From Aminobacter carboxidus (lineage in GTDB: Bacteria; Pseudomonadota; Alphaproteobacteria; Rhizobiales; Rhizobiaceae), in contig NZ_JACZEP010000005.1 in the NCBI RefSeq assembly GCF_014863355.1, forward strand, positions 1-64,000: DNA of 64,000 bases, in the 5' to 3' direction. Within the stretch, counting starts at the first letter, position 1, and every line of letters starts with the position of its first letter. Under the pieces are notes generated by a model. It worked only from the letters and a program-made list of their open reading frames with translations. It was not told the DNA's origin and did no database searches. The position numbers were made by a program, and so were the translations under genes. Below are positions 186 to 47,120 of this stretch, piece by piece.

Positions 186-560
186 ATGGATCACTACTCC
201 ATGAATGCGAGGATGATCCCCCGCAGAATTGCCCCTGAAGTCATCGAACTGCTCGATACTTCGCCCGCCGTGACCCTCGCAGCCGCAGCCCCTACAGGCA
301 CCCGGTTGAATTTCTACCGGACGTCTGCCGGCGCCGAAATCGACGTTCTGCTGACCCTGCCCGGCTCTACTGTTTGGGCCATTGAGATCAAGCGCAGCCT
401 GGCACCCAAGGTCGAGAAGGGTTTCCACCTTGCAGCCGAAGACATCAAGCCCGACAGGCACATCGTCATCTACCCTGGGACCGAGACGTATCCTCTGCCA
501 CACGACGTCGAAGCCATGCCGCTGGCGGCAGTCGGCGCAGAGCTCGCAAAACTCGCCTGA
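186..560 (+). pseudogene. DUF4143/AAA ATPase C-terminal fragment
   Basis: The 124-residue reading carries the C-terminal signature of DUF4143-type ATPases: FYRTSAGAEIDVLL, then WAIEIKRSLAPKVEKGFH, a PD-(D/E)xK-like fold fragment. Full proteins are about 380-450 residues with an N-terminal P-loop domain, which is absent. The ATG at 186 lies downstream of a T-rich stretch and has no good ribosome binding site. I read it as a 5'-truncated remnant that probably lost its front half when the neighbouring integrase region was rearranged. A functional short protein is possible but unlikely. Confidence 0.6.
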
Positions 561-563
561 TAC

Positions 564-1775
564 TCACCCTGCCCTCGCCCGCACGTCACCTCCCCGACCA
601 CGCAGCAGCGCCATTAGCACCGGACCGATCGAGAATTCGCCGGCACAGGCTTTGGCTGTCAGGCTGCGCAGATAGCCACCCGGGCTGGAAATCGCTTCGC
701 CCTTCTGCAGCATCGCCGCCACCATGATCGCGGCATCCACCGCCCCCATCGCTTCACAGGCCTGGTTCCAGGCATCTGGACTGACACCGAGCGCGCCGCG
801 CACCAGATTTGCCGTTTCAACCAGATCCGCCCAGCCCGAAATACCGTTTCGTGCATAATCGGCAATGTCAGGGCAAGCGCGCAGCACCATGCCAAGCGGA
901 TAACCCGTTGGTGGCTGGCTCTTCGCCTCCAGTTTCACCGCAGCGGCCGTCCCTTGGCCTTTTTCGAGGCCGGGTTCAAATTCATGAAGGTGTGTATTTG
1001 AATTCTGTATGTGACGCTCGAAATGAGACTCATTGGCGCTTGTTTCTTCAGTTTTAACGTGACTTTCCAGCGTCTTGCGCACCTCCTGGGCAAGCAGGGC
1101 GAGATCTTCGGCAATCGGCTCAAGCTCAAGGCGGCTCGCCGTGCGTGGAATCGTGGCCGTGATCTCGCGATATTCGAGATGCAGGCGCTGCCAGTCGGCT
1201 GCTATGCCCTCTTCAAGGCCGAAGGCGATCATCTTGGCAATGTCACGGCGCAGGATGGTAATGCGCTCGCGTACCAGCAACAGTGCCCGCCGTTCAGACC
1301 TGACTGCCTCTGCCAGCCGCTCAAACTCTTTTGCCCGGGCCAGAAGCGGCGTCAGATCGAAGCCAAAGGCCTGCTCGATCGCCCCGTCATAGCCTTTGCG
1401 GGCGTAGCGCTTGCCATTGGGGCTGTCGCGGCGCACCACGAGGCCACAGTCGACAAGCACAGCGAGATGACGCCTGAGCGTCGCCGGCGCCATGCCATGC
1501 GCCCTGAGCGCCAGCTGGGTATTGGAAGGAAACACCACAAGCCCCTCCCCTTCCACGAGATCCGTGTCGGGATGAAAGCTCAGCAAAGCGTTGAGTACGG
1601 CAAGCGCGCGATCGCTGGCGCCAAGCAATCCCTTGGCCTCGCAGACGGCACGAAACACCTGCCATTTATTGGTACTGGCGCCAGGCGCGCAGCTGTCGGC
1701 CGCCATCTGACCTGCCACCATGGCAAGCGACAGCGATCGCCGCCCAAAGGGCGTCGTCGAAATATGCGGGTCCAT
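564..1775 (-). CDS. repC: RepC replication initiator
   Basis: Replication initiator of repABC replicons; in this family RepC acts in cis on an origin inside its own coding sequence. The N-terminus (MDPHISTTPFGRR) is the classic RepC opening. The ATG at 1775 is preferred over an upstream in-frame TTG at 1793 because AGAGGA sits six bases upstream of it. This gives 403 residues, normal for the family (about 400). The N-terminal half holds the winged-helix DNA-binding part (RAHGMAPATLRRHLAVLVDC) and the C-terminal half is helical. It is the last gene of the minus-strand operon repA-repB-repC, separated from repB by the counter-transcribed RNA. Confidence 0.95.
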   Translation of the reverse strand: MDPHISTTPFGRRSLSLAMVAGQMAADSCAPGASTNKWQVFRAVCEAKGLLGASDRALAVLNALLSFHPDTDLVEGEGLVVFPSNTQLALRAHGMAPATLRRHLAVLVDCGLVVRRDSPNGKRYARKGYDGAIEQAFGFDLTPLLARAKEFERLAEAVRSERRALLLVRERITILRRDIAKMIAFGLEEGIAADWQRLHLEYREITATIPRTASRLELEPIAEDLALLAQEVRKTLESHVKTEETSANESHFERHIQNSNTHLHEFEPGLEKGQGTAAAVKLEAKSQPPTGYPLGMVLRACPDIADYARNGISGWADLVETANLVRGALGVSPDAWNQACEAMGAVDAAIMVAAMLQKGEAISSPGGYLRSLTAKACAGEFSIGPVLMALLRGRGGDVRARAG

Positions 1776-1835
1776 AATTCCTCTGCCTTTCAATGAGGCA
1801 AAAGAAATCTGCTCACCTGTTAGGTGCCGTGACTC

Positions 1836-1864
1836 TTGACAGTGATTCGGGGAAATGCGATTCT
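1836..1864 (+). promoter_or_regulatory. Promoter of the counter-transcribed RNA
   Basis: TTGACA (1836-1841) is followed after 17 bases by GATTCT (1859-1864), on the strand opposite the rep genes and in the repB-repC gap, where repABC ctRNA promoters always lie. The -35 is perfect and the -10 is weak. Confidence 0.6.
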
Positions 1865-1865
1865 C

Positions 1866-1922
1866 TAGTTGTTCAGGCTATGAGAAGGGCTTCCACGACG
1901 GCAACGTTTGGGGGCCTTTTTC
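1866..1922 (+). ncRNA. Counter-transcribed antisense RNA (ctRNA) of repABC
   Basis: A short antisense RNA in the repB-repC interval represses RepC synthesis in repABC plasmids and is an incompatibility determinant. Here a perfect -35 box opens a stretch that ends in a hairpin, AAGGGCTTCC (1885-1894) pairing with GGGGGCCTTT (1910-1919) through G-U pairs, followed by a T-rich run. That is the expected single-stem intrinsic terminator. The size of about 55 bases fits known ctRNAs. Ends are inferred. Confidence 0.65.
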
Positions 1923-1930
1923 TTTTGCGT

Positions 1931-2956
1931 TCAGTCTCCTGTTTTCGCCTTTTCAGACCTGTACGTCTCGTACAGGCGCTCGAGATTGCCTGCGATCCAG
2001 CCGCCGAAGCCGGCTGCACCCTTGTTCCTTAGCGCGAGCGTGTAGGTGGTGCCGCTCGCCTTTGTAGTAGCGCTCACCAACCTGTCCGCGGCCTCCCATC
2101 GGCCAGTTTGTCCGGAGGGCGGTGCTTTGGTCTCTTTCTTCGTCAACTCCCGGAACACGAACTGGAAGCGCGCATCGCTGCTCTCGCTCTTGAGATCTGC
2201 TTGAGCGAGATGTGACAAAAGCGATGGTATCGCCGACGGCTTGATCGCTTCCACGAGATCCATCCAACGGCGGCGTCCAACTTCAGGTGCCGGCCCTATG
2301 GCTTCGATCAACTCAAATGGAATTGCACGCACGACGCCGATCAGCTTGGACAACGCACTCTTGTCGACGCCAAGAGCAGACATGATGACCTCTCGTGAAA
2401 ACGAGCGGTCCTCGAGACGGGCCGCAAACAGCGCCCGCTCGATGAAAGACAGATTGGTCCGCGCATTGTTTTCCTGGCCCTGGCTGACGACCAATTCATC
2501 ATCGGAAAGTTTCCGGACAACGGCACGAACTTTGAGCCCAAGCTGCGAAACCGCGGCCAACCTGCGATGGCCATACGCCACCTGATAGCGCTCTTTAGCA
2601 TCAGGGTGCGGGCGAACAAGGATCGGCACCTGTTGACCGTGGTCCCTGATCTGCTCCACCAATTGAGCGAGTTCTACGGCATCCATCTCCAGCCGGTCAC
2701 GCACAATCGATGCATCGATCAGCGACGTGTCCAGCTCGATGACCGTATGCCCCTCGGCCATTTGACGCTCAAGATCGTTTGCGCGTTCCACCTTCTGAGT
2801 GATGTTTCCCAATGTCTTTGCGATGCCACCCACCGGGGACGCATGGCGCGTGTTTGAGGGAACCAGCCCTGCGATCGGCCGGGACGCCGACAGCGTCTCG
2901 GCCGGCCTCAGTGGCGCGGTGCTTTCGGACACTTCGATGAGATTCTTTCGAGCCAT
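1931..2956 (-). CDS. repB: RepB, ParB-family centromere-binding protein
   Basis: Plasmid partition protein that binds parS palindromes and works with the RepA ATPase. The 341-residue reading has the ParB N-terminal nuclease-like domain (VPILVRPHPDAKERYQVAYG, then HRRLAA), the QENNARTNLSFIERA stretch, a central helix-turn-helix (EVIMSALGVDKSALSKLIG) and a C-terminal dimerisation part. The ATG at 2956 overlaps the repA stop as TAATG, implying translational coupling; the in-frame GTG at 2971 is less likely. Its expected targets are the GTTGTCCGCGGACAAC copies upstream of repA. Confidence 0.93.
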   Translation of the reverse strand: MARKNLIEVSESTAPLRPAETLSASRPIAGLVPSNTRHASPVGGIAKTLGNITQKVERANDLERQMAEGHTVIELDTSLIDASIVRDRLEMDAVELAQLVEQIRDHGQQVPILVRPHPDAKERYQVAYGHRRLAAVSQLGLKVRAVVRKLSDDELVVSQGQENNARTNLSFIERALFAARLEDRSFSREVIMSALGVDKSALSKLIGVVRAIPFELIEAIGPAPEVGRRRWMDLVEAIKPSAIPSLLSHLAQADLKSESSDARFQFVFRELTKKETKAPPSGQTGRWEAADRLVSATTKASGTTYTLALRNKGAAGFGGWIAGNLERLYETYRSEKAKTGD

Positions 2957-4146
2957 TATTTCCGGCCCCACGTGCTCTTGAGGAGACTTTCTATTTCGGA
3001 ATTGACCTGGTTGAGCGACTCCATGGCACGGTCGTAGGTACCACGCGTAAACTGCGCCCTGTCGACTTCATAAAGCGTTTGCTTGGTAACCCCCGCATCA
3101 GAGATGGCAGTGGACTTGAGCATCGGGTGCTGGAGCATGCGCGTTCCGAAGATACCCCGCATGAACCCCGTCATCTGGCTTTGCGGCCCATCGTTGGGTT
3201 CAAAACGTGTAACGAGGTAGCGCATCCAGTCGTAGCTTGTGCGACCACCCGCTTTTTCGACGACTTCCATCAGTTCGCTGGTCATGGCGAGGAACTGGCT
3301 CATCGACATGACGTCAAGCATTTGCGGATGCACAGTGATCAACACCGACGTGGCCGCACAGAGAGCCGACATCGTCAAAAAGCCCAGCTGCGGCGGGCAG
3401 TCGATTACGACGACATCGTAAAGCGACTCGATGGGGGCGAGGGCCTCGCCGATTCGGGCAAAGAACATCGATTCCGCCGTTCCCCTGGCAATCGCCGTCG
3501 GCGTTTCGTGCTCGAACTCCATGAGTTCAAGATTGCCTGGAACAATATGCAGATTGGGGGTGTAGGTTGCCCGGACGATGTCGGAGATCGGCCGCGGATT
3601 GTCGTATCGGATCGCACCGTAAAGGGTCTCTCCTTCGCCGACATCCAGTTCAGGCTGATGCCCAAACAGCGCCGAAAGGGACGCCTGCGGGTCAAGGTCG
3701 ATCGCGAGAACCCGATAGCCACGTATGGCAAGAAACTGAGCAAGGTGCGCCGACGTCGTGGTCTTTGCCGAGCCGCCCTTGAAATTCATGACGGCTACAA
3801 CCTGGAGCTTCTCACCAGGGCGCCGTACCGGCACATATTTTTGCGAGCCATTCTTTTCGTCGAGAGTCACGCGAATACGGTTCATATCATCGGGAGTGTA
3901 CAGGCGCCGGCCGTTGGCCATTGGCTCGGGCCCATACCCCTCGCCTGCTACCTGACGGAGATAACCCTCCGCAATACCGATGTAATGAGCAGCCTCGGCT
4001 GGAGCAAACTGCCGGATCGTCTTCTGGGAAGTTGGCGGGAATATCTTCTGTTGGTGCAGCTGCAGCTGCCGTGACAGTTCCCGCGAATCCGCAGACAACG
4101 TCGACGGAAGGTGCTCCTGCTCGTGGCCAATCTTGCTATGCATCAT
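2956..4146 (-). CDS. repA: RepA, ParA-family partition ATPase
   Basis: Partition ATPase and, with RepB, autorepressor of the repABC operon. It has 396 residues: an N-terminal DNA-binding region with a MerR-like helix (APAEAAHYIGIAEGYLRQVA) and a ParA core with the deviant Walker A motif MNFKGGSAKTTT, DLDPQASLSALFG, and the Walker B-like VVIDCPPQLG. It is the first gene of the operon. The start ATG at 4146 is followed by a second ATG at 4143. A sigma70-like promoter and an inverted repeat lie just upstream. Confidence 0.95.
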   Translation of the reverse strand: MMHSKIGHEQEHLPSTLSADSRELSRQLQLHQQKIFPPTSQKTIRQFAPAEAAHYIGIAEGYLRQVAGEGYGPEPMANGRRLYTPDDMNRIRVTLDEKNGSQKYVPVRRPGEKLQVVAVMNFKGGSAKTTTSAHLAQFLAIRGYRVLAIDLDPQASLSALFGHQPELDVGEGETLYGAIRYDNPRPISDIVRATYTPNLHIVPGNLELMEFEHETPTAIARGTAESMFFARIGEALAPIESLYDVVVIDCPPQLGFLTMSALCAATSVLITVHPQMLDVMSMSQFLAMTSELMEVVEKAGGRTSYDWMRYLVTRFEPNDGPQSQMTGFMRGIFGTRMLQHPMLKSTAISDAGVTKQTLYEVDRAQFTRGTYDRAMESLNQVNSEIESLLKSTWGRK

Positions 4147-8307: not shown

Positions 8308-8333
8308 AATCTTCATCAATGAGGGCGCGTGAC

Positions 8334-9143
8334 ATGGCACCAAAATCATTCTGGAAGGGTTATCTCAAGCTGTCGCTGGTGACCTGTCCAGTCGCCATGT
8401 CACCCGCAACCAGCGAGTCGGAAAAAGTTCGGTTTCACACACTCAACAACAAGACCAATAACCGGGTCGTCAGCCAGTATGTTGATGCAGAAAGTGGCAA
8501 GCCGGTGGCCGAAGACGACGAAGTCAAGGGCTATCAGCGCGGTGAGAATGACTACGTGCTACTGGAGGATGACGAGTTGGAGGCCGTGGGGCTCGAAAGT
8601 ACACGTACGATTGATATCGACATGTTTGTAGATGCCGATTCAATCGGCTGGATTTGGTACGACAAACCACACTACCTGCTACCGGACGATCCTGTCGGTG
8701 AGGAAGCATTTTCGGTCATCCGTGACGCAATGGAAGCGACCGGCAAGGTAGGCATTTCGCGATTGGTGCTTTACCGGCGCGAACGCGCTGTCATGCTCGA
8801 GCCCAAGGGCAAAGGTATCGTGTTGTGGACACTTCGATATGGCGATGAGGTGCGTGACACAGGCGATTATTTCGAAAAGATCGGCGATGCCAAGGCCGAC
8901 CCCCAATTGACCAAACTTGTCGGCGAGCTCATCGAAGAACGGACGAAGCCTTGGAATCCCAAGATGGCAGGCGATCCGGTGCAGGAGCGTCTGCTCGACA
9001 TAATCGCGTCAAAGAAGAAGGGCCGAAAAAAAGCCGCGAAGACGAAGGCTAAGCCACAAGACAGCGGCGGCAACGTCATCAATATCATGGACGCCCTGCG
9101 CAAGAGCATCGGCTCAAGCAATGGCAAACGCGGCCGCGCTTGA
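8334..9143 (+). CDS. ku: Ku end-binding protein (NHEJ), copy 1
   Basis: Bacterial Ku forms a ring on DNA ends and recruits LigD in non-homologous end joining. 269 residues starting MAPKSFWKGYLKLSLV, with the Ku core (VRFHTLNNKTNNRVVSQYVD; PHYLLPDDPVGEEAF) and a Lys-rich C-terminal tail (SKKKGRKKAAKTKAK) typical of Ku proteins that bind LigD and DNA. The ATG at 8334 matches the family start; MRARD from 8319 is an extension. It converges on ligD. In Sinorhizobium, ku/ligD genes are multiple and partly under the general stress sigma, which fits the EcfG box here. Confidence 0.93.
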   Translation: MAPKSFWKGYLKLSLVTCPVAMSPATSESEKVRFHTLNNKTNNRVVSQYVDAESGKPVAEDDEVKGYQRGENDYVLLEDDELEAVGLESTRTIDIDMFVDADSIGWIWYDKPHYLLPDDPVGEEAFSVIRDAMEATGKVGISRLVLYRRERAVMLEPKGKGIVLWTLRYGDEVRDTGDYFEKIGDAKADPQLTKLVGELIEERTKPWNPKMAGDPVQERLLDIIASKKKGRKKAAKTKAKPQDSGGNVINIMDALRKSIGSSNGKRGRA

Positions 9144-11723: not shown

Positions 11724-12590
11724 TCAACTGGCCTTTCGGCGCGAAGCTGCGTCGCCAGATTTGGCCCTCTTGCCAGCTTTCGTGCCGCGGGCTGCGGTTT
11801 TGCGTTTCTTTCCGTCCGGCGAGCCGGCACTTTGTCGCAGCGCTTCCATCAGGTCGATGACCTTGCCACGCTCCGCTGGCTTGCGGACTTCGATCTTCTT
11901 GCCGTCGATTTTGGCCTTCACCAAACTGGCCAGGGCAGCCTCATAGCGGTCGTCGAACTTACCTGGGTCGAATGTTCCGTTCTTGGTCCTGATGATGTGT
12001 TCGGCGAGTTCCAGCATCTCGCCCTTGATCTTGATGTCGGAAATTTTGTCGAAGGCTTCCTTTGCCGGGCGGACTTCATAGTCAAAGACGAGGGTGGTGG
12101 CGATCAATCCCTCGCCGTAGGGTCGGATCAACAAAGTGCGCACCCGCCTGAACAGGACGGTCTGCGCCAGCGCTGCGACTTTCTTCTTTCGCATGCCCTC
12201 TCGAATAAGGGCGAACGCCTCTTCGGCATGCTTGTCTGAGGGTGCGAGGTAATAGGGTTTGTCGAAATAGACGTCGTCAATTTCGGCACAGCGCAAGAAC
12301 GCCGACACCGCCAAGGTCTTGTCGCTGTCGGGGACCGCTGCCGACACTTCGTCGGGATCCAGGACAACGAATTCTCCCGAACCAATCTCGTAACCCTTGA
12401 CCTGGTCATCGTGTTCGACAGGTTTGCCGGTCTCACTGTCAACAAACTCGCGGCGAACACGATTGCCGGTGGCGCGATTGATCGTGTGAAATGCAATACG
12501 CTCAGACGTCGATGCGGCCGTGAAAAGCGCCACCGGGCACGTCAACTCACCAACCTTGAGGAAACCCTTCCAATTCGCTCTGGGTGCCAC
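11724..12590 (-). CDS. ku: Ku end-binding protein (NHEJ), copy 2
   Basis: 288 residues from a GTG at 12590, chosen because GAGGAG lies nine bases upstream and VAPRANWKGFLKVGELTCPV is the normal family opening; the longer reading to 12677 would run across the promoter. It has the Ku core (IAFHTINRATGNRVRREFVD; PYYLAPSDKHAEEAF) and a long basic tail (KKRKTAARGTKAGKRAK). It is only moderately similar to copy 1, so an old duplication or separate acquisition. First gene of the ku-ligD operon. Confidence 0.93.
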   Translation of the reverse strand: MAPRANWKGFLKVGELTCPVALFTAASTSERIAFHTINRATGNRVRREFVDSETGKPVEHDDQVKGYEIGSGEFVVLDPDEVSAAVPDSDKTLAVSAFLRCAEIDDVYFDKPYYLAPSDKHAEEAFALIREGMRKKKVAALAQTVLFRRVRTLLIRPYGEGLIATTLVFDYEVRPAKEAFDKISDIKIKGEMLELAEHIIRTKNGTFDPGKFDDRYEAALASLVKAKIDGKKIEVRKPAERGKVIDLMEALRQSAGSPDGKKRKTAARGTKAGKRAKSGDAASRRKAS

Positions 12591-35909: not shown

Positions 35910-36281
35910 TCAGGCGGTTTGTTGCACGACCAGGGTCAAAACTCCGTCGGGCGTCACGCCAGCGGCAACCACTTGCGTCGGATTCATTCCAACCGCCGCC
36001 AACGTCATTATCGCTTGCCTGGATTGGGAGATGGTGTTTTGCAGGTCGTGTAAATCATCAGCGTCTGTTTGTTCAATAATGTCTTCCACATCCTGCTTTG
36101 TCGGTCCTGACAAAGTTTCGAATTCAACAATGACAACATCAATGTACGTATGATCGGGGCCAAGTTGGGGCTCCGCAGATTCCAAAGTTTGCTCAGGCTG
36201 TGAACCCGATTGTTCCTGTGCAACGGATGGCGACGCGCTGAGAGCCAGGACGACGGCTATCACGACGTTCGAGTTTGACAT
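35910..36281 (-). CDS. Exported hypothetical protein, 123 residues
   Basis: Signal peptide (VVIAVVLALSASPSVAQEQS), then an acidic mature domain (TKQDVEDIIEQTDADDLHDL; GVTPDGVLTLVV). No family recognised. A GGAAC-N17-CGTT promoter lies 114 bases upstream of the start. Confidence 0.7.
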   Translation of the reverse strand: MSNSNVVIAVVLALSASPSVAQEQSGSQPEQTLESAEPQLGPDHTYIDVVIVEFETLSGPTKQDVEDIIEQTDADDLHDLQNTISQSRQAIMTLAAVGMNPTQVVAAGVTPDGVLTLVVQQTA

Positions 36282-36394
36282 TGTAGCCTCCTCCAGCTTG
36301 GCTTTCGAAGGGCCTGCCGGGAGGGGATCTCGGCAGGCCCCATGCTGGAGCGTTTATGACGTGTGGGGACACGGAGGACACGCTCCAATGATAA

Positions 36395-36420
36395 AACGCC
36401 ACGTCCTCGGTCCTGGTTCC
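36395..36420 (-). promoter_or_regulatory. EcfG-type promoter (exported protein)
   Basis: On the minus strand, GGAAC (36420-36416), 17 bases, CGTT (36398-36395), implying a leader of about 105 bases. Confidence 0.6.
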
Positions 36421-36808
36421 CCCTTCGCCACGGTCACCCTGCCGGGCAAAACGGAAAGCCGCTCGGATAGCTGCAATACACAACTCAGGTACCGCTGCTG
36501 TTTACGCCAGCAAAAACGTGCGTCGGCCACACCACGGGACGGTTGGAAGAAGGGCCGTGCCACGCGCCCGGGTGCAAGACCCGCGCAGGGAAGTTGGCAC
36601 AACCGATGGAACCATTCCCTGACCCTGGAGTTGAATGCGCCGGAGGCGCGGACGGCTCCCAGGAGTCGATCAGCGTCGTCCATCGGAACGCGATTTCAAG
36701 CGACCGTTTCCATCACTTGCGCGACCCCCGACAGGTTCGCATGAACCGGACAGATGTTGGGCATTTCGAGCGCTGCCATGGCTTCGGTCCTACTTAGGGA
36801 GGTTCCCT

Positions 36809-45495: not shown

Positions 45496-45520
45496 GGAAC
45501 CAACTGCGGGGTTTTCCGTT
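45496..45520 (+). promoter_or_regulatory. EcfG-type promoter of the predicted sRNA
   Basis: GGAAC (45496-45500), 16 bases, CGTT (45517-45520). Perfect consensus with no open reading frame following. Confidence 0.7.
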
Positions 45521-45526
45521 ATTTTC

Positions 45527-45604
45527 CAACGAGGACGAGGGGCGTGGTTAGCCCTTTCCCACGCCTACAAAAGCCCCGCCCAGTGGTCTGGCGGGGCTTT
45601 CGTT
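45527..45604 (+). ncRNA. Predicted EcfG-dependent small RNA
   Basis: An orphan EcfG-type promoter is followed, six to eight bases on, by a short structured stretch. Hairpin 1: GGCGTGG (45541-45547), loop TTAGCCCTTTC, CCACGCC (45559-45565). A five-base linker follows, then terminator hairpin 2 at 45570-45600. The RNA would be about 78 bases. A 5' stem with a C-rich loop plus a terminator, under the stress sigma, is the plan of Caulobacter GsrN. No ribosome site or start codon leads to a reasonable peptide. Ends are inferred. Confidence 0.6.
45570..45600 (+). terminator. Rho-independent terminator
   Basis: AAAGCCCCGCC, loop CAGTGGTCT, GGCGGGGCTTT: a perfect 11-bp stem followed by CGTTTGC; the A-rich left side also lets it act on the minus strand. 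It ends the predicted sRNA. Confidence 0.8.
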
Positions 45605-45732
45605 TGCATCGTTGCACGTTCGATGAACGCGCGTGGCAAACAGGCTTCGCCAGCGTCCGGCTTTCGACGGGCAAGCAGCCACCCAAGCGTAATTTGTGCC
45701 TGGCGTCGGGGCCTCAGCGGCAGCGCCGATCG

Positions 45733-46029
45733 TCAGCTTATTTCCGCGACAACCGTACCCGAGATTGGGTCCGTCACGCCGAGGTCGCCGCCGAGGTCCT
45801 CGAGCGTGTCGCGAAAAGTGTCGAGAATGCCTATCATCGATGGCCGCGCTGCAGCGAGACTATCCATATCGTCCCACTCGCCGAGCATGCAAAAGGTGCG
45901 CTCGCCGGTCTTGATCAAGGCGCCCTTGCGAAAGCCCTTGGCGTTCAAAGATATCTTTTCATGCGCTTCGACGAAGGCCTGCTCCTTGCCTGGCTTGGTT
46001 CGGAAGCGGACGATGTTGTAGGCGGTCAT
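45733..46029 (-). CDS. ABM-fold (antibiotic biosynthesis monooxygenase-like) protein
   Basis: 98 residues from the ATG at 46029 with GGAGGAAGG upstream. YNIVRFRTKPGKEQAFVEAH opens a dimeric alpha/beta barrel of the ABM superfamily; FCMLGEWDDMDSLAAARPSM continues it. It lies 32 bases after the methyltransferase on the same strand, so probably one operon. A small oxygenase or a binding protein; substrate unknown. Confidence 0.75.
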   Translation of the reverse strand: MTAYNIVRFRTKPGKEQAFVEAHEKISLNAKGFRKGALIKTGERTFCMLGEWDDMDSLAAARPSMIGILDTFRDTLEDLGGDLGVTDPISGTVVAEIS

Positions 46030-46061
46030 TCCTTCCTCCATTGGTTCGCAGTCCATGTACG

Positions 46062-47120
46062 CTAGGGACGAGCTTCCAGGACCATGTTGAACGGCGTCTC
46101 GGTTGCGCGGTGGAAGCGCTTGAAACCGCCACTGGTCACCACCTTGCGCAGTTTCGCCTCTCCGGCCTGGGCTCCAAGCCCGAGCCCTACTTCCTGTGAC
46201 AGTGACGCAGGCGTGCAGACAAAAGTGGAGGCTGCATAATAGACGCGCCCCACGGGATTGAGGTTGGCGCTCAGGTGATCATGCGCGAATGGTTCAACGA
46301 TCATCCATGTACCGTCCGGTTTGAGGGAGGTATGTACATGTTTGGCCGCACCGGCAGGGTCGCCCATATCGTGAAGGCAGTCGAAGAATGCCACGAGGTC
46401 GTAGGTGCCGGGATAGGTCTTGGCGGCTGCAACTTCGAAGCGCGTATTGGCGCTGACGCCAGCCTCCGCGGCGGCCTTTCTTGCACGCTCGATCGAAGGC
46501 TCGTGATAGTCGAAGCCGGTGAAGCGAGAATTCGGAAAAGCGCGCGCCATCAGCACAGTTGACGCACCATGGCCGCATCCAACATCGGCGACCTCGGCGC
46601 CACGCTCAAGTTTTGCGACGACACCGTCGAGAGCAGGGAGCCAGGAGTCGATCAGATTGGCATTGTAGCCTGGGCGGAAGAACCGCTCAGTGCCGCGAAA
46701 AAGGCAAGCACTGTGTTCATGCCAGGCAACACCCTTGCCCGACTTGAATGCGTTGCGCACCTTCTCCTCGTCGAGCCAGAGAGTCGACATAACCTCGAAT
46801 GCACCCGCCATGAAGGCCGGGCTGTCCTCGTCAGCGAAAACAAGTTCCTGCTCGGCGTTGAGATAGAAGCGGTCGGTGGCCTCATCATAGTCAACATAGC
46901 CGGCAGCCGCCTGTCCAGACAGCCATTCTCTGACCAGGCGCTCTTGGGTACCGGTGCCCTTGGCAAGCTCGGTTGGCGTCATCTTGCCGCCCTCGCGCAA
47001 GGCCTTGAACAGGCCAAGCCTATCGCCAAGCAGTACACCTGCCCCAGTAGCAATCGCGCCAAGATCGCCGACCATCTTTCCCAGGAATGCGTCCAGTTTT
47101 GCCTGACCAGCGTCCGTCAT
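46062..47120 (-). CDS. Class I SAM-dependent methyltransferase with winged-helix N-terminus
   Basis: 352 residues from the ATG at 47120 (GGGAG upstream). An N-terminal winged-helix dimerisation part (GDRLGLFKALREGGKMTPTE) precedes the Rossmann domain with motif I VADVGCGHGASTVL and FTGFDYHEPSIERA. The arrangement matches small-molecule O-/C-methyltransferases rather than RNA enzymes. It is divergent from a LysR gene and followed by the ABM-fold gene. Substrate unknown. Confidence 0.85.
   Translation of the reverse strand: MTDAGQAKLDAFLGKMVGDLGAIATGAGVLLGDRLGLFKALREGGKMTPTELAKGTGTQERLVREWLSGQAAAGYVDYDEATDRFYLNAEQELVFADEDSPAFMAGAFEVMSTLWLDEEKVRNAFKSGKGVAWHEHSACLFRGTERFFRPGYNANLIDSWLPALDGVVAKLERGAEVADVGCGHGASTVLMARAFPNSRFTGFDYHEPSIERARKAAAEAGVSANTRFEVAAAKTYPGTYDLVAFFDCLHDMGDPAGAAKHVHTSLKPDGTWMIVEPFAHDHLSANLNPVGRVYYAASTFVCTPASLSQEVGLGLGAQAGEAKLRKVVTSGGFKRFHRATETPFNMVLEARP

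Follow-up and report, generated by a model that had tools for sequence, protein, structure and literature searches.

Alphaproteobacteria use EcfG as their general stress sigma factor. Tien et al. (PMC5869019) describe GsrN of Caulobacter crescentus as a sigma-T-dependent sRNA that carries six tandem C in a loop and pairs with G-rich tracts, for example in the katG leader. The same paper gives GGAAC and CGTT at a spacing of 15-17 as the strict sigma-T motif, limits the BLASTn homologues of GsrN to Caulobacteraceae and predicts GsrN-like sRNAs in Rhizobiaceae (Fig. 9). The gsrN gene lies typically, not universally, near ecfG, nepR and phyR, with C. crescentus itself as an exception; GsrN is further marked by processing into a stable 5' isoform and by stabilisation through Hfq. 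Three further papers describe the ar14/NfeR1 RNAs, with three hairpins that each contain CCUCCUCCC and with NfeR1 controlled by LsrB and NtrC (PMC10746234); the alphaR8 siblings SisA-D, with the seed UUUCCUCCCU and promoters that share no motif (PMC12559287); and EcpR1, with the loop UCCGCCGCAUCU, which lies downstream of divK-pleD and belongs to the stringent response regulon (PMC4414408). In S. meliloti, according to PMC3616915, RpoE2 promoter motifs are predicted 5' of 23 sRNAs, and arrays support eight regions.

Here we describe a locus on a plasmid of Aminobacter. The window analysed is the first 64 kb of a 438,793-base contig, and the replicon start carries the repABC-type RNAs ctRNA_p42d and S-element (Rfam). 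We consider it probable that 45526-45604(+) is the gene of an EcfG-controlled trans-acting sRNA, a plasmid sibling of an RNA encoded on the chromosome 20-25 kb from nepR, and that its loop pairs with mRNA leaders. No description of this RNA was found in the titles and abstract openings of the papers that searches of one library retrieved on such sRNAs. It would form a new family within the known class of EcfG/RpoE2-driven sRNAs.

Results and Discussion

Promoter and structure of the predicted RNA

The first-pass annotation had claimed a perfect GGAAC-N16-CGTT promoter, a 7-bp stem with a C-containing loop and a perfect 11-bp terminator hairpin, and all three were read directly in the sequence, the terminator with zero mismatches (Table 1). 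The 5' stem begins 20 bases 3' of CGTT, and the terminator hairpin starts 4 bases past the stem. The predicted transcript folded at -37.9 kcal/mol (z -2.75; 2 of 200 shuffles were as stable), with an unpaired probability of 0.56-1.0 for the loop bases. The terminator has a weak U tail, interrupted and partly within the stem (TTTCGTTT).

Table 1. Coordinates of the predicted RNA and of related or similar units (G, genome; C, contig; L, locus; positions without a genome label refer to the 438,793-base contig, C27 of G000).
Feature	Position	Strand	Description and basis
-35 element GGAAC	45496..45500	+	EcfG (general stress sigma) promoter type; read directly from sequence
-10 element CGTT	45517..45520	+	16 bases 3' of GGAAC; read directly
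Predicted small RNA, ~78 nt	45526..45604	+	Identity of copies and fold; start 45526-45528 predicted from promoter spacing
Purine-rich leader CGAGGACGAG	45530..45539	+	Conserved as CGAGGANGAG in three plasmid-type copies (alignment)
5' hairpin GGCGTGG/CCACGCC	45540..45566	+	7 bp (45541-45547 with 45559-45565) and an eighth, G-U pair (45540/45566)
Exposed loop TTAGCCCTTTC	45548..45558	+	11 nt; proposed pairing seed, common core CCTTTC
Intrinsic terminator	45570..45600	+	11-bp stem (AAAGCCCCGCC 45570-45580, GGCGGGGCTTT 45590-45600), then CGTTT; sequence and fold
Promoter with strong terminator, three contig sites	window unit; 339277(-); 99847(+)		Found in the 438,793-base contig
C6 units	G002:C1:4095552, G002:C1:4107336, G004:C25:55312		GAGCATG stem, loop with CCCCCC, EcfG-type promoter (R3)
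Relative	G006:C3:10894		ACGTGG stem, CCCTTTC loop, GGAAC-N17-TGTT (R3)
Relatives	G004:C25:65198, G002:C1:4106880		ACGTGG stem, CCTTTC loop, without matching promoter (R3)
Weak relative L128, same plasmid	G000:C27:385253-385338	-	GGCGTGG/CCATGCC stem, loop with CTCCTTTTC, terminator; without clear EcfG promoter

GGAAC-N16/17-CGTT was found at 17 sites in the whole contig, and since nine of these lie in the window, where 0.85 were expected, the promoter motif by itself is not unusual here. The relaxed motif GGAAC-N16/17-[CA]GTT gave 27 contig sites, three of which had a strong terminator 20-190 nt downstream, against one with a close strong terminator among the 53 contig sites of six control motifs. 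Promoters followed closely by a strong terminator are less frequent than promoters alone, in small numbers. AGTT is plausible as a local -10 element, since GGAAC-N16-AGTT was read between phyR and nepR of the window's own genome (L079). At 99847(+) an ATG-started frame lies 3' of the promoter, and the combination of promoter and terminator at this site looks like chance.

The terminator test was strict, and a second EcfG-type unit of the window, at 36306-36426(-), escaped it. This unit has GGAAC-N17-CGTT, the hairpin GGAGCG...CGCTCC and a GC-rich hairpin with GGCCTGCCG/CGGCAGGCC; next come the site GGAGGAGG and a frame, 35910-36281(-), for which there was no match in Pfam. The unit could be an sRNA, or else a leader that carries a premature terminator; model R3 (see below) matched it at E 0.08. 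At G000:C27:339277(-) an EcfG-type promoter (AGTT) precedes a GATGAAGCG/CGCTTCATC hairpin that has ACCACCCTC in its loop, and a terminator. Two other motifs of the window lie 11 and 29 nt 5' of Ku genes, as measured to the longest frame of each (8319-9143 +, 11724-12590 -), which suggests that end joining on the plasmid may be under stress control.

Copies in Aminobacter anthyllidis

BLAST searches of ten Aminobacter genomes gave matches in two, the window's own and that of A. anthyllidis (G003), which has two copies. With these copies the predicted transcript shares 81.7% and 74.1% identity. In the flanks, taken as 100 bases on either side of the unit starting upstream of the promoter, identity was 42-48%, compared with 49% for shuffled sequence under the same aligner. 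Both A. anthyllidis copies stand beside other genes than the window copy, and this conservation of the unit at other loci argues against chance; by this comparison, the window unit is not a chance arrangement. The L005/L066 copy has retained GGAAC-N16-CGTT, with the offset from the hairpin that is seen in the window (-40), and upstream of the L004/L057 copy no GGAA[CT]-N15-18-NGTT was found. The first-pass annotation had named stem and promoter not being conserved together as a finding that would speak against its reading; they were conserved together in L005/L066 and in the chromosomal relatives described below, and not in L004/L057. The plasmid collection contained no match to the window, L057 or L066 copies, and an exact-pattern scan of the genome-contig collection returned 43 stretches, of which, by eye, only the two from A. 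anthyllidis had the full unit.

An ABM-type gene at 45733-46056(-) points at the terminator palindrome, whose minus strand likewise contains a run of T (AAAGCCCCGCC...GGCGGGGCTTTTGT). The hairpins could thus be the terminator region of this convergent gene together with an accidental stem, with no separate RNA. Such an origin is very unlikely in view of the conservation of the unit, including leader and 5' hairpin, beside other genes in A. anthyllidis, and of the covariation of the 5' hairpin described below.

It had also been stated that no gene follows the promoter. A GTG frame at 45544-46065 does follow it, preceded by a GAGG stretch and open for 173 codons, which would make the unit a 5' leader (riboregulator or attenuator) or the start of a small protein encoded by this or another downstream frame. 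This frame had no match in Pfam, is antisense to a Pfam-supported gene and contains the terminator hairpin inside its first 20 codons, and the corresponding frame of the L004 copy stops immediately (GTG GCT TGA). Loop length varies among the three plasmid-type copies (11, 14 and 13 nt). Because of these loop lengths and the broken frame in L004, we expect no protein; the leader or protein reading is extremely improbable, and the window unit is, as far as these comparisons go, non-coding.

Chromosomal relatives near nepR

Relatives were searched for with two models. R1, built from the window copy and the two A. anthyllidis copies and applied at a loose threshold, gave weak matches in the genus, five of which (in G000, G002, G003, G004 and G008; E 0.0019-0.025) lie about 20 kb from nepR. 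All five loci, when read out, had GGAAC-N16/17-AGTT, then a [G/A]G[C/T]GTGG stem whose loop contains CTTTTCCTTTC, then a terminator. R3 was built from eight chromosomal and two plasmid-type copies with promoter columns included; its E-values are no independent proof of the promoter, and synteny and the hairpin are. With R3 the locus was found in all ten Aminobacter genomes at E 3.1e-9 or better, in syntenic position 20-25 kb from nepR. The chromosomal loci of G006 and G009 were outside the training set of R3, as was a promoter-less copy on G003:C3, which was matched at E 2.9e-6.

GGAAC-N16/17-[A/C]GTT precedes all ten chromosomal relatives, with AGTT in nine and CGTT in G006. The loop core CCTTTCA is identical in the ten copies, spacer and flanks vary, and the purine-rich leader of the plasmid-type copies is absent. 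Some tens of bases past the terminator, the ten loci share an almost invariant block, CAACCCAG.GTGACTCGACA. The window copy lies on contig C27 and nepR of the same genome on C12, where the chromosomal copy falls within G000:C12:784665-784789(-). Judged by score alone, plasmid-type and chromosomal copies are only weakly linked, and the link would rest on stem, loop, promoter and terminator together. Since a related RNA gene occupies one fixed chromosomal place in the Aminobacter genomes examined, the plasmid copy looks like an additional copy of a stress regulator.

In four of the eight chromosomal regions examined, the RNA has an Omp25/31-type gene no more than about 4 kb away, and such a gene is also present near both A. 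anthyllidis plasmid-type copies. A link between the RNA and Omp25/31 was rejected, since leader complementarity, judged by eye, was unconvincing and no such gene was found on C27 at E 1e-6. Several EcfG-type hairpin units were observed among Omp25/31-type outer membrane protein genes at G002:C1:4085000-4110400 and G004:C25:55000-65500.

Covariation and further relatives in the genus

At E <= 1, R3 gave 29 matches in the genus, from which 17 hairpins (3 plasmid-type, 10 chromosomal and 4 further relatives) were picked by eye for the pair count. Among the 12 matches left out, three had C6 loops and nine had a different or no such hairpin, including L133 and L137, which are without promoter motif. 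In the 17 hairpins 97.1% of 136 stem cells were paired, against 34-56% in slid controls. Values as high as those observed occurred in 0 of 500 shuffles for the covariation score, for the percentage paired and for the cells with two-sided changes (11), and in 54 of 500 for the pairs with two-sided changes (3); such counts are inflated by the choice by eye and by the kinship of the sequences. The first ten sequences gave a weaker result (covariation 40/500, pairs with a two-sided change 242/500). Both the promoter columns of R3 and the choice of hairpins by eye are biased toward the sRNA reading. On this alignment the 5' stem covaries.

The CCTTTC loop core was present in 15 of the 17 copies, and in those copies that were read out the 5' hairpin was followed by a second, terminator-like one. 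The promoter, which in an EcfG-dependent sRNA should be conserved with the RNA, was found in 13, namely the window, L066, L124 and the ten chromosomal copies; upstream of L057, L128, L130 and L132, GGAA[CT]-N15-18-NGTT was not found. The earlier proposal of a stress-sigma-driven small RNA thus gains from the joint conservation of unit, stem and promoter in L005 and the chromosomal copies, and is restricted by the four promoter-less copies (L004/L057, L128, L130, L132).

Separately from these hairpins, a below-threshold match to ar35 with a long identical core was seen at L123:2461-2575(-) and L122:2470-2600(-), about 0.9 kb from a C6-loop unit.

Distribution beyond Aminobacter

BLAST gave matches in 3 of 394 family genomes, and the non-self ones, in G036 and G378, covered query bases 74-119, the terminator part, only. 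R1 gave two matches in 297 genomes, the window's own and L013, the latter judged false on reading. A hairpin pattern with up to three mismatches found five matches in 297 genomes, all in Aminobacter, one of them (G006:C1:1856363) away from the syntenic locus. R3 gave nine matches in 344 genomes, seven of them in Aminobacter, with 10 of 203-3,688 candidates per listed genome scored, and ten matches in 41 relatives, all in Aminobacter. The R3 match in G276 is a different C6-loop unit, and that in G331 was judged false. The covariance search for the fold, which the first-pass annotation had proposed for Mesorhizobium although the window belongs to Aminobacter, thus succeeded in ten of ten Aminobacter genomes and yielded no accepted relative outside the genus in the 344 genomes with 10 candidates scored per listed genome. 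The family appears confined to one genus at the sensitivity used, in samples of 297-394 family genomes and 41 relatives and with one exact pattern in the genome-contig collection; distant copies may escape.

The G276 unit (L165; G276:C22:161718-161847(-)), outside Aminobacter, consists of GGAAC-N16-GGTT, the hairpin AGGTCTGA-TCCCCCC-TCAGACCT and a terminator. Synteny of the ABM gene was followed through 30 loci, six of them in Aminobacter, and an orthologous RNA was not found in the other 24. In genus g63 an EcfG-like motif lies 5' of the ABM gene in four of five loci. Two g63 loci, L207 (plus strand, ~280) and L205 (oriented, ~16), carry an RNA-like unit ACTGGTTCCCCCA[G/A]ACCAGT with a second hairpin and a terminator, preceded by GGAAC-N16-CGTT in L207 and by a partial motif only in L205.

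Comparison with GsrN and other known RNAs

The window RNA and GsrN have in common a stress ECF promoter (GGAAC/CGTT), found here in the sequence and in its conservation with the RNA, a short transcript (about 78 nt predicted here, about 100 nt for GsrN; PMC5869019), an exposed pyrimidine- or C-rich 5' loop and a terminator. They differ in the loop: GsrN has six tandem C, whereas the window loop (UUAGCCCUUUC in the RNA, with CCCUUUC) has three C in a row. The window RNA lies on a plasmid and its chromosomal sibling 20-25 kb from nepR, unlike the vicinity of ecfG, nepR and phyR that is typical of gsrN. The GsrN-like plan claimed for the unit holds for promoter, 5' hairpin with exposed pyrimidine loop and terminator; the C6 loop is absent and the locus differs.

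A pattern of promoter plus C6 loop was found in 77 of 247 genomes and in 48 for the reversed control, a difference too weak alone as a test of the class. In Aminobacter it picked out L180 and L181, and other genera yielded units of similar build, such as L192. L180, L181 and L192 have an EcfG promoter, a GGACGGG/CCCGUCC-type stem with a mostly-C loop and a terminator, at loci separate from the window RNA; the loop is 23 nt in the folds of L180 and L192, and the best fold of L181 differs from theirs. The same pattern gave matches with a GACGGGC.GTCCCC-like core in several other genera. These three resemble the GsrN-like RNAs of Rhizobiaceae as Tien et al. describe them in words and are possibly the GsrN-like RNA of the family, which points to a better GsrN candidate in the genus than the window RNA.

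The shared plan, with its sigma-T/EcfG promoter and pyrimidine-rich loop, and the GsrN-like sRNAs predicted in Rhizobiaceae would also suit a true distant homologue of GsrN that has lost its C6 loop. We regard this as highly improbable on account of the loop, of the EcfG-type units with C6 loops at separate loci in Aminobacter (L180, L181, L123) and of the restriction of BLASTn homologues to Caulobacteraceae (PMC5869019); membership in GsrN was rejected on the first two grounds.

Rfam had no match at the window unit at gathering thresholds, and up to E 10 no rhizobial family, no ar14 and nothing convincing in the window region. The only Rfam family that recurred below threshold at the relatives' own positions was ar14 (RF02344), in 5 of 15 loci (L119 36.4, L116 33.2, L118 27.3, L114 26.3 and L112 23.8 bits; gathering score 58.8 bits); part of the L119 alignment is promoter, outside the transcript. 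At L120, the window's own locus and one of the 15, ar14 gave no match; L123 scored 29.0 bits. Like ar14/NfeR1 (PMC10746234), the window RNA has a hairpin with a pyrimidine loop complementary to ribosome-binding sites, but it has two hairpins instead of three and CCCUUUC in place of CCUCCUCCC, and its relatives score below threshold. With SisA-D it shares multi-copy siblings and a short conserved pyrimidine seed; the SisA-D promoters are without common motif, whereas the EcfG motif is present in 13 of 17 copies here. EcpR1, which is stress-induced, is likewise a rhizobial sRNA with a conserved 5' loop.

Proposed mechanism and significance

Under general stress, EcfG-RNA polymerase would start transcription at GGAAC-N16-CGTT and stop at the terminator hairpin (45570-45604). 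The product would be an RNA of two stem-loops, the 5' one exposing the pyrimidine loop with the core CCUUUC. This core most likely pairs with GAAAGG-type purine stretches of mRNA leaders near ribosome-binding sites, and the pairing would alter translation of the target mRNAs. Where the plasmid is present, the sibling RNA would reinforce the EcfG response that the host already has.

Pairing energies of the loop with 379 plasmid ORF starts had a mean of -8.32 kcal/mol, and 13 of 30 shuffled loops were as low or lower; with no enrichment at these starts, the scan lends no support to a general anti-Shine-Dalgarno role. In Rhizobiales the 16S rRNA 3' tail is CCUCCUUUCU, and the CCUUUC core matches part of it. 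It is conceivable, if somewhat doubtful, that Aminobacter has a multi-copy stress sRNA family with one fixed chromosomal member and plasmid siblings, some of them with the EcfG promoter, that plug into the host's stress network, and that CCUUUC is a copy of the 16S tail serving as an extended anti-Shine-Dalgarno seed. The passage on this subject in PMC6288834 concerns Neisseria.

The scan without signal would also suit a real sRNA that acts on a protein, for example by sequestering a regulator, or as an RNA sponge; a short stem-loop with a conserved loop fits protein binding too, and PMC12559287 reports sponging between the sRNAs CrfA and SisA in Caulobacter. We think this unlikely, as GsrN and NfeR1 use their C- or pyrimidine-rich loops to pair with mRNA (PMC5869019, PMC10746234). 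An EcfG-controlled sRNA that pairs with mRNA leaders is the reading we keep.

Work on GsrN has reportedly shown that the output of the general stress sigma factor can have an RNA among its central components. A family near the stress locus in each Aminobacter genome examined, together with a plasmid copy that has the same promoter, would offer a testable second case outside Caulobacter, and the approach taken here finds such RNAs where protein annotation misses them.
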